Shown piece after piece: positions 4,156 to 49,850 of a DNA stretch of 64,000 bases (positions are counted from its first letter, which is position 1; each line of letters opens with the position of its first letter). The stretch is from an uncultured Bacteroidales bacterium (GTDB taxonomy: Bacteria > Bacteroidota > Bacteroidia > Bacteroidales > FEN-979). Position numbers and translations under genes: made by a program. The notes under the pieces were generated by a model that saw only the letters and a program-made list of their open reading frames with translations, ran no database searches and had not been told where the DNA came from. The DNA lies in assembly GCA_903845055.1 (NCBI GenBank), contig CAIMWF010000048.1, positions 1 through 64,000 on the forward strand, read 5' to 3'.

Positions 4156-5457
4156 ATGAAAAAAACGACCCCCGCCGGAAGCTTCTTATCCTTTCCCGGC
4201 AATTTCTGGACCGCCATCTCCATGGAATTTTTTGAACGTGGTTCATACTATGGCGTGATGTCGGTGCTGTCGGTCTACCTGGTGTTGTCGAAAAGCGAAG
4301 GAGGACTGGGATTTTCAAAGGAAAGCGTCGGTGTGATCAAAAGTACCATCACCCCGCTGCTTTATTTCCTCCCGATTTTATCAGGGGCGATCGGCGACCG
4401 GTTCGGCTATCGCAAAGTGCTCGTCTTTGCTTTTTTCACCATGAGCCTCGGTTACTGGTTTGCAGGTTTTGCAACCACCTATGCCGCAGTTTTCAGCAGT
4501 CTGATCCTGGTAGCACTGGGTGCCGGGTTTTTTAAACCAATGATATCCGGGACCATTGCCCGGGTGACCGATGCATCAAACTCCTCCCTCGGATTCGGGA
4601 TCTATTACTGGTCGATCAACCTGGGGGCTTTCCTTTTTCCGCTGATCCTGGTGCCCTGGCTCATATCAGTTTCTTACCATTACATCTTTTTCATGGCCGC
4701 CATCGGGACCGGTTGGCTGCTCATCCTCAATTTTTTCGTTTACAGGGAGCCAGCAAGGCTGCAGGCGGCAAAATCCATGAAACTGGTATTCGCCGAAATG
4801 ATCACTGTATTGCGCGATTTCAGGTTCATCCTCATGATCGTGATCTATTCGGGATTCTGGATCATGTATTTCCAGGTATACGACTCGGTGTTGTGGTATC
4901 TCAAGGAAAAGGTTGATATGTCAGGGTTCAACAGCCTTGTTAACACGGTACTTGCACTTTTTGTTGAAAATCCAACATGGAAATTTGATGCCGAACACGT
5001 TACGGTGATGAACGCGGCGGCCATCATCCTGCTCCAGCTGCTTGTTTCGAGCCTGGTGCGCAACACGAAAGCCCTGCCGACCATGATCTTTGGCATCTGC
5101 CTCGGCTCGCTCGGGATGGGGATGCTGGCGGTTTCACCCAGCGGGTGGATATTCCTTGCCTCCATGTTCATATTTACCCTGGGAGAAATGATCGCCCACC
5201 CGAAGTTCATCGCCTATGTGGGGCTCATCGCACCCGATGACAAAAAGGCACTTTACCAGGGATGGTCCTTCATGTACGGCGTTATCGGCAGCGGCGTGGG
5301 AGGGGTGCTGGGGGCAGCGCTGTACGTACAATTCGTTGAAAAAATGAACCAGCCGTCGCTTTTATGGCTGACATTCAGCATGATCGGGGTTGCAACCGTT
5401 ATCGGGTTGTTGTTGTTTAACAGGTTCCTCGTAAAAAATAGCGAGGTAGTGAGGTAG
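4156..5457 (+). CDS. POT/PTR-type proton-coupled oligopeptide transporter (MFS)
   Basis: A 433-residue integral membrane protein with about 12 hydrophobic segments. The first helix carries E24-x2-E27-R28 followed by GSYYG, which matches the ExxERFxYY proton-coupling signature of the POT family of di- and tripeptide symporters. GDRFGYRK is the MFS loop 2-3 motif. It is somewhat shorter than typical bacterial POTs (about 460-500 residues). The start ATG at 4156 gives a hydrophilic N-terminus of about 15 residues. The last codons (SEVVR and stop) lie inside an octamer TAGCGAGG array, so the C-terminal residues are set by the repeat. It converges on the GH2 gene. Substrate is uncertain: peptides are likely, but MFS relatives for other solutes cannot be excluded. 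Confidence 0.82.
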   Translation: MKKTTPAGSFLSFPGNFWTAISMEFFERGSYYGVMSVLSVYLVLSKSEGGLGFSKESVGVIKSTITPLLYFLPILSGAIGDRFGYRKVLVFAFFTMSLGYWFAGFATTYAAVFSSLILVALGAGFFKPMISGTIARVTDASNSSLGFGIYYWSINLGAFLFPLILVPWLISVSYHYIFFMAAIGTGWLLILNFFVYREPARLQAAKSMKLVFAEMITVLRDFRFILMIVIYSGFWIMYFQVYDSVLWYLKEKVDMSGFNSLVNTVLALFVENPTWKFDAEHVTVMNAAAIILLQLLVSSLVRNTKALPTMIFGICLGSLGMGMLAVSPSGWIFLASMFIFTLGEMIAHPKFIAYVGLIAPDDKKALYQGWSFMYGVIGSGVGGVLGAALYVQFVEKMNQPSLLWLTFSMIGVATVIGLLLFNRFLVKNSEVVR

Positions 5458-5470
5458 CGAGGTGGCGAAA
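5439..5470 (+). repeat. Octamer array (TAGCGAGG type), 4 units, sense strand of the POT gene
   Basis: Units TAGCGAGG, TAGTGAGG, TAGCGAGG and TGGCGAAA run head to tail. The transporter's stop TAG (5455-5457) is the first triplet of the third unit. It faces an inverted copy at 5507-5538, so the two arrays could also pair as a long hairpin between the convergent genes. Confidence 0.85.
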
Positions 5471-5506
5471 TTATGATTCGCTCATCCACGGTATACTATT
5501 ACAAAT

Positions 5507-5538
5507 TTTCACTACCTCGCTACCTCGCTATTTCGCTA
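5507..5538 (-). repeat. Octamer array (TAGCGAGG type), 4 units, sense strand of the GH2 gene
   Basis: On the minus strand this reads TAGCGAAA, TAGCGAGG, TAGCGAGG and TAGTGAAA in sequence. The stop TAG of the GH2 gene (5528-5530) is the start of one unit, and the last residues (GEVAK) are also repeat-encoded. Confidence 0.85.
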
Positions 5539-48509: not shown

Positions 48510-49133
48510 ATGACCGGAACCATAAAAATATCTACCGGCATAATCATATGCATTTTACTGGGCCTCGCAGATACGGGATGTGATGTTACCCGGCAGGCGA
48601 AACAGGTATCCGCCCTTTCGAAATGTGATTTCAGGATATTCAGCGTGGAACAGGTTGACCTGGCCGGCATCAGGTTCGACCAGATCAGGTCGGTTTCCGA
48701 TATGAACCTCGGTGATGTCGCCCGCATCATGGGAGCCCTGGCCAGCCCGGTACTCCCGCTGTCGATGAGGGTCAACGTGGAGGTGCATAATCCCAATAAT
48801 CGTGATGCCGGGCTGAACCGCCTCGAATGGGTGCTTTTCATCGATGACAACCAGATGACTACAGGGATACTCGACCAACCCTTTTCAATCCCGGCTAACA
48901 GCACACAGCTGGTCCCGGTGGAGGTCGGCATTGACCTGAAGCAGGCGCTGAAGGGCAAGCCCGGGGAGGCCCTGCTCAATTTCTGCATGAACCTGGCAGG
49001 GGCCGGGAGCAAACCGACGCGGTTTAAAATAAAGCTAAAACCAAGGCTGACTGTGGCCGGGGTTGAAATCATCTATCCCGGTTTCATCACTGTCAACACT
49101 GAATATGCATCACCGGCGGTCACTCCGCGATGA
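48510..49133 (+). CDS. LEA type 2 (WHy-domain) lipoprotein
   Basis: A 207-residue protein with a lipoprotein signal (lipobox GLADTGC). The pattern around IRVNVEVHNPNNRDAGLNRLEWVLFIDD followed by a stretch with PFSIPANSTQLVPVEV matches the LEA14/WHy beta-sandwich fold, found in desiccation-related proteins and in many Bacteroidota lipoproteins of unknown role. It begins 27 bp after carB. The 3' end overlaps the convergent cyclophilin gene by 14 bp. Confidence 0.78.
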   Translation: MTGTIKISTGIIICILLGLADTGCDVTRQAKQVSALSKCDFRIFSVEQVDLAGIRFDQIRSVSDMNLGDVARIMGALASPVLPLSMRVNVEVHNPNNRDAGLNRLEWVLFIDDNQMTTGILDQPFSIPANSTQLVPVEVGIDLKQALKGKPGEALLNFCMNLAGAGSKPTRFKIKLKPRLTVAGVEIIYPGFITVNTEYASPAVTPR

Positions 49134-49755
49134 CCCTCGCTTCAAGGATATAATCAAGCTCAGGGAATTTCACCTTCAGGTAACCGTTGCCGTGGATCAT
49201 GACCGAATCCTGGAAGTTTGCCGGTTCAAAACCATAGCCGCCATACAGGGATTCAATGACCTCAAACCCTGAAATGATCCTGGCCACGGGAGGGAATCCC
49301 CGCAAACCATTGTCATTGACCGTATCGAGTTTGAAGTTGTCCTTCAGGTTGATGAACAGCTGCGTGGTCCGGGTGGTCATCCCGTCACGGGCGTAGGAAA
49401 TGGTTCCTTTCAGGTTACTGTGGGCCACATCCTCGTCGTAAACCGGTCTTTTATCCCAGAAAAAGTTGACCTCCTTCACATTGCTGATCCCGAACTGGAC
49501 CACGTATCCCTTCTGAACCCTGAACAGGGAATTTCCCGTATAAAAGCCGGTCTCAATCAGCTGGTACAGGCGGTCGGCAGCCAGCGGAGACCATTTCCGT
49601 ACCACTTCAATGGTAAAACTGCCTTTGGTTGTTTTAAACAATGCCTTGAATGTGGGAGGAGCATGCGACATCAGCATCGACTGGTCGGGGATAACCTGTG
49701 CCCCCACCTGGCAGCAAAACTGGCAAACGACAATAAACACAACAAAATTTTTCAT
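49120..49755 (-). CDS. Cyclophilin-type peptidylprolyl isomerase, exported
   Basis: A 211-residue protein with a signal peptide (MKNFVVFIVVCQFCCQVGAQ). The cyclophilin core is recognisable: ALFKTTKGSFTIEVVRKWSPLAADRLYQLIETGFYTGNSLFRV, YVVQFGISN and GTISYARDGMTTRTTQLFINLKDN, with the catalytic-type Arg and the substrate-binding QLFIN. It folds proline-containing proteins in the periplasm. The catalytic HR-pair is modified (FRVQKGYVVQFG instead of FHRVIKGFMIQGG), so activity may be altered. It converges on and overlaps the LEA lipoprotein gene. Confidence 0.82.
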   Translation of the reverse strand: MKNFVVFIVVCQFCCQVGAQVIPDQSMLMSHAPPTFKALFKTTKGSFTIEVVRKWSPLAADRLYQLIETGFYTGNSLFRVQKGYVVQFGISNVKEVNFFWDKRPVYDEDVAHSNLKGTISYARDGMTTRTTQLFINLKDNFKLDTVNDNGLRGFPPVARIISGFEVIESLYGGYGFEPANFQDSVMIHGNGYLKVKFPELDYILEARVIAE

Positions 49756-49822
49756 GAAGCGGCATCAGATTGGCCCGTAAAAATAAAAAATAGATTGGTT
49801 TGCTACCTAAAAAAGTCTCTTG

Positions 49823-49850
49823 TATTCGTCACTCGTCACTCGTCACTCAA
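49823..49850 (-). repeat. Heptamer array (ACGAGTG type), 4 units, 3' of the T9SS remnant
   Basis: On the plus strand TATTCGT, CACTCGT, CACTCGT, CACTCAA. The minus strand gives TGA per unit, and the first is the stop codon of the T9SS sorting-domain fragment (49847-49849). Confidence 0.82.

Follow-up and report, generated by a model that had tools for sequence, protein, structure and literature searches.

Tandem 7- and 8-bp arrays behind the genes of a Bacteroidales genome follow a strand rule, and their stop codons look like a side effect

Background

Short tandem arrays lie behind many genes in the stretch of DNA analysed here, the first 64,000 nucleotides (nt) of contig CAIMWF010000048.1 ("the window"), and the question that they raise is why they stand at gene 3' ends and why so many of them contain stop codons. 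The contig belongs to a metagenome-assembled genome of an uncultured Bacteroidales bacterium (GCA_903845055.1; 3.95 Mb, 175 contigs, 95% complete). An initial annotation had listed twelve arrays with 7- and 8-bp units and had proposed that they place a stop codon in every frame, through selection for that property or through a shared generating process. Multicopy tandem heptamers between genes are familiar from cyanobacteria, as the short tandemly repeated repetitive (STRR) heptanucleotides. Heptamer arrays have long been counted and, to our knowledge, there is no agreed reason for their placement.

The reading favoured here, with a probability of roughly 0.6, is that dispersed 7- and 8-bp arrays spread by copying within each genome and become established, or persist, directly behind stop codons, with their purine- and G-rich strand as the coding sense, and that the stops in them are mostly a by-product.

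Results

Arrays were detected by Tandem Repeats Finder (TRF) in the window and by a separate detector in 937 kb of the genome's own 3.95 Mb and in 634 kb of relatives (1.57 Mb in total). Genes were called with a dicodon open reading frame (ORF) caller made for this analysis or, for loci from other phyla, by a longest-ORF rule; starts are uncertain and stops less so. TRF gives 55 repeat rows in the window, mostly with units of 7–9 bp. With the separate detector, 452 kb of the genome hold 43 arrays of period 7 (41 intergenic), 24 of period 8 (21 intergenic), 10 of period 14 (9 intergenic), and at most two of any other period. The 937 kb sample holds 74 intergenic arrays of period 7 and one in genes; the corresponding numbers are 42 and 2 for period 8, 13 and 3 for period 14, 9 and 0 for period 16, and 7 and 2 for period 9. 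An order-2 Markov copy of this sample yields three arrays in total (periods 6, 11 and 15), none of them at 7 or 8. The copy number of the genome's own period-7 and period-8 arrays has a median of 3.7 and ranges from 2.4 to 8.0.

The arrays belong to the known class of long simple sequence repeats, which have units of 5–11 bp and are mostly intergenic. Their presence is confirmed by both detectors, but the further statement that every array trailing a gene carries stops on the sense strand fails (see below). Periods 7 and 8 also dominate among arrays away from gene 3' ends; therefore, a period that is not a multiple of three, which the initial annotation had linked to stops in all three frames, is not special to gene 3' ends.

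The counts of strands and stops refer to intergenic arrays of period 7, 8, 14 or 16 that have a gene 3' end as their closest boundary; 11 arrays of these periods inside called genes and one array of a relative with no boundary in reach are left out. Among the 59 arrays that start 0–10 nt behind a stop codon, 48 have the purine-rich strand as sense and 11 as antisense, and the sense strand has more G than C in 40 and more C than G in 7. Over the wider range from -40 to 25 nt (n = 115), G exceeds C on the sense strand in 82, C exceeds G in 12, and the two are equal in 21. The bias is gone at 26–100 nt, where each base prevails in 9 of 33 arrays. In the 30 nt behind genes without an array the purine fraction is 0.493, and G exceeds C in 223 and C exceeds G in 295 of 563 cases. 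These array-free flanks lean the opposite way, and the G skew therefore belongs to the arrays.

Stop codons do not follow the same pattern. A sense stop is present in 37 of the 40 arrays that overlap the stop codon of the gene (22/23 in the genome itself, 15/17 in relatives), as is to be expected, because an ORF that enters an array ends at the first in-frame stop. When these arrays are set aside, sense stops match composition: 35 of the 59 arrays at 0–10 nt have one, against 32.4 expected. For the genome's own arrays the count is 21/31, with 17.9 expected by shuffling each unit (p = 0.15), and for the relatives it is 14/28, with 14.5 expected (p = 0.67). Therefore, there is no excess of stops where they are not forced. 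An excess of sense over antisense stops, which the initial annotation had named as its test, does exist at 0–10 nt (31 arrays with stops on the sense strand only versus 10 on the antisense strand only, p = 0.0015), but it is the excess that a purine-rich sense strand would give.

Of the 63 arrays at 0–15 nt, 14 lack stops on both strands, and the sense strand is the purine-rich one in 13 of these 14. With each unit counted once per genome (46 units), the purine-rich strand is sense in 37 and antisense in 9, while stops are sense-only in 21, antisense-only in 8 and absent in 13. The rule that the arrays obey is that the purine- and G-rich strand is the coding sense, even in units free of stops. 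Selection for a stop in every frame finds no support in these counts, and the stops seem to be a consequence of the way and the places in which the repeats settle, and not the cause of their presence.

The stop codon of the gene is often part of the pattern. Of 24 arrays of TAGCGAGG and TAGCGAAA, 15 stand behind TAG stops (TAG closes 119 of 678 genes in the genome), and 11 of these 15 share their register with the TAG. Seeding of an array by the gene's own stop codon was considered and rejected. For arrays at 0–7 nt, in-phase similarity at the stop is 1.35 of 3 (0.82 in other phases), and at the far edge it is likewise 1.35 (0.86 in other phases). Since similarity is equal at both edges, seeding is not separable from overrun of the array or decay of its edge.

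Units are more alike between loci of one genome than between sister species at one gene end. COX1 was found in 15 of 19 genomes of the genus, and its surroundings were retrieved from 14 relatives. The ends of COX1, COX3, a gene of 94 residues and the DUF5686 gene are occupied by arrays of different units across the relatives. At the end of COX1, for example, the unit is TAGCGAGG in this genome and in relative G009, GTGACGA in G008, TGGACAAG/TGGGCGAG in G012 and CGGACAGG in G018, and other genomes have no array there. A looser detector (threshold 9, periods 5–16) finds 46 arrays at orthologous gene ends: 9/15 for COX1, 7/15 for COX3, 11/15 for the 94-residue gene, 7/12 for the DUF5686 gene, and none at several junctions. 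The mean 4-mer similarity of their units is 0.144 between different sites of one genome (69 pairs) and 0.038 for all other pairings (815 pairs). Shuffling of units within sites gives 0.045, and the observed value was reached by none of 2000 shuffles. Outside the cox region (82 arrays, five genomes) the means are 0.142 within and 0.049 between genomes (0/5000 permutations), and the pattern is also present in genomes sampled regardless of their units (0.103 versus 0.060 in G003, 0.091 versus 0.028 in G013).

One family is dispersed widely. A doublet of TAGCGAGG has 52 matches in the whole genome, versus none for the reversed control pattern, and this 8-mer class makes up 21 of the 42 intergenic period-8 arrays in a sample that is biased toward it. 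Its two forms tend to follow one order: by pattern hits (not arrays), TAGCGAGG is followed by TAGCGAAA, that is, GAGG by GAAA, in 59 cases and preceded by it in 6 in this genome, with 13:1 in G003 and 9:3 in G007. If composite arrays are copied, a kept unit order is to be expected. The likeness within genomes and the prevailing unit order fit a putative copying of arrays within a genome onto gene ends. Of the two readings in the initial annotation, that of a shared generating process is supported: units recur across loci, are not the same from one sister species to the next at a given gene end, and in one family keep their composite order.

Occupied gene ends are shared in 4 of 40 pairs outside the cox region (1.6 expected) and in 32 of 445 inside it (22.9 expected). 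This is a weak lean toward hot spots at gene ends, as the pairs are not independent.

Some arrays enter the gene and code for the end of its protein. Polyphosphate kinase ends in ...KEQLEEDEKKKVAR, of which VAR and the stop are coded by the array, while the orthologues end in ...YLKEQV (G008) and ...YLKLQV (G003). The product of gene 21004–21384 has the array-coded end ...KEDTTSDE, and seven relatives have ...KEENTD and similar ends. Such cases are not the rule. When genes with arrays are compared with array-free orthologues, both tails agree within two residues in 166 of 203 comparisons (background, 1180 of 1468); array genes keep their usual ends, and therefore the arrays mostly halt at the gene. 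Where an array does enter, its sense stop closes the frame. The stop idea survives to this extent: stops act as a filter, but they are not what the arrays are for.

A triplicate of GTGACGA is present in several phyla, in at least 117 stretches, of which 80 loci were analysed; by their record titles these loci come from Chloroflexi, Acidobacteria, Verrucomicrobia, Nitrospirae and other phyla. Of the 86 GTGACGA arrays in these loci, 24 lie within 20 nt of gene 3' ends (21 sense, 3 antisense) and 27 elsewhere; the 35 inside long ORFs are all antisense, so that the stop-free strand is the sense of the ORF. GTGACGA alone cannot separate an effect of stops from an effect of strand. The other arrays of these loci separate them in part. 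From -30 to 15 nt (25 arrays) G exceeds C in 19 and C exceeds G in 3, the purine-rich strand is sense in 19 and antisense in 6, and stops are sense-only in 9, antisense-only in 5 and absent in 6; at 16–60 nt, G prevails in 9 and C in 7 of 18. As a candidate for a universal unit GTGACGA was rejected: it was found in 7 of 296 Bacteroidota genomes and its reversed control in 5 of 296, and therefore it is not special.

Arrays upstream of start codons are A/T-rich. AAATCGT is the commonest unit, with 15 arrays that have the AAATCGT strand in sense at a distance of 15 nt or less, and many relatives have such arrays in front of the same cox genes. This second class (AAATCGT, AATTCGT, AATTTTT) is seen at 13029–13060, 17398–17415 and 17796–17821 and in the cox spacers of relatives; AAATCGT is kept at the same gene starts across many relatives, while the units on the 3' side change. 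For 5'-side units with a G+C content of at least 0.4, G exceeds C in the outward direction in 10 of 11 and C exceeds G in one. Array-free 5' flanks lean the same way (368:193 of 625), and therefore this lean may not be specific to arrays. The A/T-rich leaders may suit initiation without Shine-Dalgarno sites (cf. PMC6847099).

The arrays of the window are listed in Table 1. Of the twelve that the initial annotation had described as trailing genes with sense stops, eleven do so; the array at 49823–49848 does not, because the closest called gene starts 68 nt downstream of it, and that at 13387–13451 has no stops in the sense of the second converging gene, 13462–13764 (-), 11 nt away. In eleven of the twelve, the array starts between -18 and +21 nt from the gene 3' end, and in five the called stop codon is overlapped by at least two bases. 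The stop-free array at 35495–35514 (TRF score 33, 2.5 copies) has no stop on either strand and is absent from the list of the separate detector.

Table 1. Tandem arrays in the window
Array	Coordinates	Strand	Position relative to genes
TAGCGAGG	5439..5468	+	Over 3' end of MFS-type gene 4156–5457 (+); called stop codon inside array
TAGCGAGG/TAGCGAAA	5507..5542	-	Over 3' end of beta-galactosidase gene (ORF 5528–8767, -)
TAGCGAGG-type	8703..8751	+	5' side of beta-galactosidase gene; G-rich strand antisense to gene
GAGAATTT-type	12130..12172	-	7 nt behind gene 12179–13006 (-)
CGTAAAT (AAATCGT)	13029..13060	-	23 nt upstream of gene 12179–13006 (-); A/T-rich 5'-side class
GGATTTGA	13387..13451	+	Between converging called genes; sense stops for + gene ending at 13373
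AATTTTT	17796..17821	-	4 nt upstream of called start of gene 17508–17792 (-); 5'-side class
TAGCGAGG to TAGCGAAA	17827..17861	-	3 nt behind cytochrome c oxidase subunit III gene 17864–18457 (-)
TAGCGAGG	18500..18531	-	Contains TAG stop of cytochrome oxidase subunit I gene 18529–20139 (-)
GTGACGA	20970..21019	-	Enters gene 21004–21384 (-); codes last residues (TSDE) and stop
GATTTGAA-type, short	21493..21519	-	End of cytochrome c gene 21519–22508 (-)
TAGCGA, two units	25015..25033	-	Directly behind DUF5686 gene 25033–27642 (-)
GGTGACAA, 24-bp higher order	28793..28893	+	21 nt behind gene 27621–28772 (+)
TAGCGAGG	32779..32811	-	Enters polyphosphate kinase gene 32800–34884 (-); codes last residues (VAR) and stop
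GCAGGAAT, weak, stop-free	35495..35514	-	6 nt behind gene 35520–36800 (-); counterexample to a stop rule
GTGACGA	49823..49848	-	Upstream of cyclophilin-type gene 49120–49755 (-); trails no called gene

DUF5686 is one among several protein families represented in the window. At the cytochrome c oxidase subunit III gene, the TAG and the array units share one register, and in the 14 relatives shown the cytochrome oxidase subunit I protein ends as it does here. In the convergent pair at 5439–5542, the two gene ends carry separate TAGCGAGG arrays, each in the sense of its gene, and the arrays face each other; the start of the beta-galactosidase gene is an ATG at 8767 in the ORF list and at 8695 by the gene caller used here. 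A 9-bp array (TGCATTGTC) lies at a two-gene junction, 22468–22510, and similar 9-bp units stand behind the counterpart of gene 21519–22508 in G014 and G017. An octamer array (CCATTTCG) at 41371–41400 lies inside the long ORF 40563–44039 in the stop-free orientation and reads ...TISPFRHFTIYL.

Discussion

Several known repeats resemble these arrays. Rehm et al. (2015) described G-rich heptamer repeats, GGGAATC in Xanthomonas and GGGGA(C/T)T in Nostoc, with the G-rich strand as sense near the stop codon and as antisense just upstream of an ORF, and also mentioned STRR repeats for Calothrix (PMC4692102). The placement near stop codons is found here too (G over C in 82 and C over G in 12 of the 115 arrays). 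The likeness extends to intergenic tandem heptamers depleted between divergent ORFs and without known function, and to two related strains in which the same gene pairs carry repeats that vary in length and sequence (PMC4692102). Here, unlike there, the units are many and of both 7 and 8 bp, those of sister species differ at the same gene end, and some code for protein tails. Moreover, a G3 quadruplex motif (four G-tracts) is present in 5 of the 115 flush arrays and in none of the 66 of this genome; unlike the Rehm repeats, the arrays are mostly incapable of it, and a G-quadruplex explanation was rejected for this genome.

MacGregor (2015) reported TAACTGA direct repeats, of which one orientation stops all three frames, thus limiting where the repeats can be located (PMC4679880). 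They too are intergenic heptamers and occur in some Bacteroidetes, but they have one fixed unit and lie mostly just upstream of start codons (PMC4679880); a TAACTGA doublet was not found in the 1.57 Mb sampled. The Borg tandem repeats are similarly fast-evolving, with partial units at their edges and a base bias attributed to their formation, but their units are longer (18, 20 and 21 nt) and adenine-rich and about half lie inside ORFs (PMC9879509). The long heptamer and octamer repeat class and the strand rule are the known part of the present observations. The new part consists of the octamers, the genome dialects, the different arrays of sister species at the same gene end, and the array-coded tails. 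Among the papers listed by searches of the open-licence PMC literature, no title or abstract beginning described genome dialects or re-occupied gene ends, which does not prove that there is no such description.

In the favoured reading, the by-product may arise in three ways. A purine-rich, C-poor strand would hold TAA, TAG and TGA by its composition; the gene's own stop codon would often be in register with the first unit; and an array that invades a gene with a sense stop would end the protein at once and so be tolerated. The copying itself may proceed by ordinary recombination or by template switching in replication. A more specific form is speculative and rather unlikely: that spreading is directed at gene ends, the 7–8-bp dialect of a species rewriting 3' ends outward with the G-rich strand 5' to 3', in a telomere-like manner, so that dialects replace each other between sisters and sometimes recode protein tails. 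The copy would then be started by a strand-specific event, such as a transcription-linked nick or an R-loop.

A multi-frame safety net, in which three units would halt ribosomes that read through or have shifted frame, whatever the frame, would account for the eleven window arrays with sense stops and for the 31:10 ratio at 0–10 nt. It is nevertheless improbable: stops at this distance are no more frequent than composition gives, the stop-free arrays at 0–15 nt keep the strand rule, and the published GGGAATC, GGGGATT and GGGGACT units are placed alike with no stop triplet at all (PMC4692102). Long simple sequence repeats are usually ascribed to local slippage. A purely local origin from the sequence behind each gene, with purging from coding regions and no copying between loci, would agree with the mostly intergenic position of the arrays, with edges that resemble decayed units, and with the report that heptamers are the commonest long repeats in most genomes (PMC4679880). 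It is nevertheless unlikely: one 8-mer class prevails, in a sample biased toward it, its whole-genome matches are still 52 against none for the reversed pattern, and the dialects and the unit order are not expected from independent seeds.

The sharp specificity of position and strand would also suit an RNA function, such as that of a terminator, an exonuclease block or a protein-binding site in the 3' untranslated region, kept in sense by selection. The sense RNA fold is more stable than the antisense fold in 61 of 86 arrays and less stable in 15, and the idea of an unstructured RNA was discarded on this count. However, sister species carry different units at the same gene end, and many orthologues are array-free, which leaves such a function about as doubtful as a local origin. 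No clear role in termination emerges: among the genome's own 3' ends with gaps of at least 25 nt, flush arrays occupy 24 of the 118 convergent ends and 36 of the 330 co-directional ones, and in relatives 7 of 42 versus 39 of 259. None of 29 intrinsic terminator-like sites (G+C-rich hairpin and T run) in 16000–35600 overlaps a listed array, and an Rfam search of the window gave no match. Dispersed copies in a single orientation relative to the gene might point to a dedicated element, such as a Y1 transposase associated with repetitive extragenic palindromic (REP) sequences or a reverse transcriptase. However, PF01797 and PF00078 have no match in this genome, while 14/19 and 16/19 genomes of the genus are positive, and such an element is therefore very improbable here, within the limits of a 95% complete assembly in which a gene may be missed.

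Several points weigh against spreading by copying. Copying was not directly seen, and the 14 cox relatives are too diverged for the alignment of filled with empty sites. Units at the same site in different genomes are slightly more alike (0.060, 151 pairs) than after shuffling within genomes (0.040, reached by 2/2000); therefore, some inheritance or parallel choice exists. The contigs of the own-genome sample all carry the TAGCGAGG pattern, which inflates this family. Unit order is weak in G009 (70:42), where runs alternate, and outside the TAGCG family no gradient of G+C along the arrays was found (14 higher, 17 lower, 12 equal). The register between array and stop codon does not exceed the generic similarity seen at the opposite edge (1.35 at both). 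As a separate observation, contigs C428 and C179 of G009 hold long alternating TAGCGAGG/TAGCGAAA runs that form a 16-bp higher-order repeat.

The data set the strand rule apart from both stop content and G-quadruplexes, and they describe concerted, genome-specific units at comparable gene ends within one genus. They also provide a set of sites at which the gain of arrays, their exchange and their invasion of coding ends can be followed. If copying is true, it would be a route by which the ends of bacterial genes are rewritten, including C-terminal residues and stop codons.

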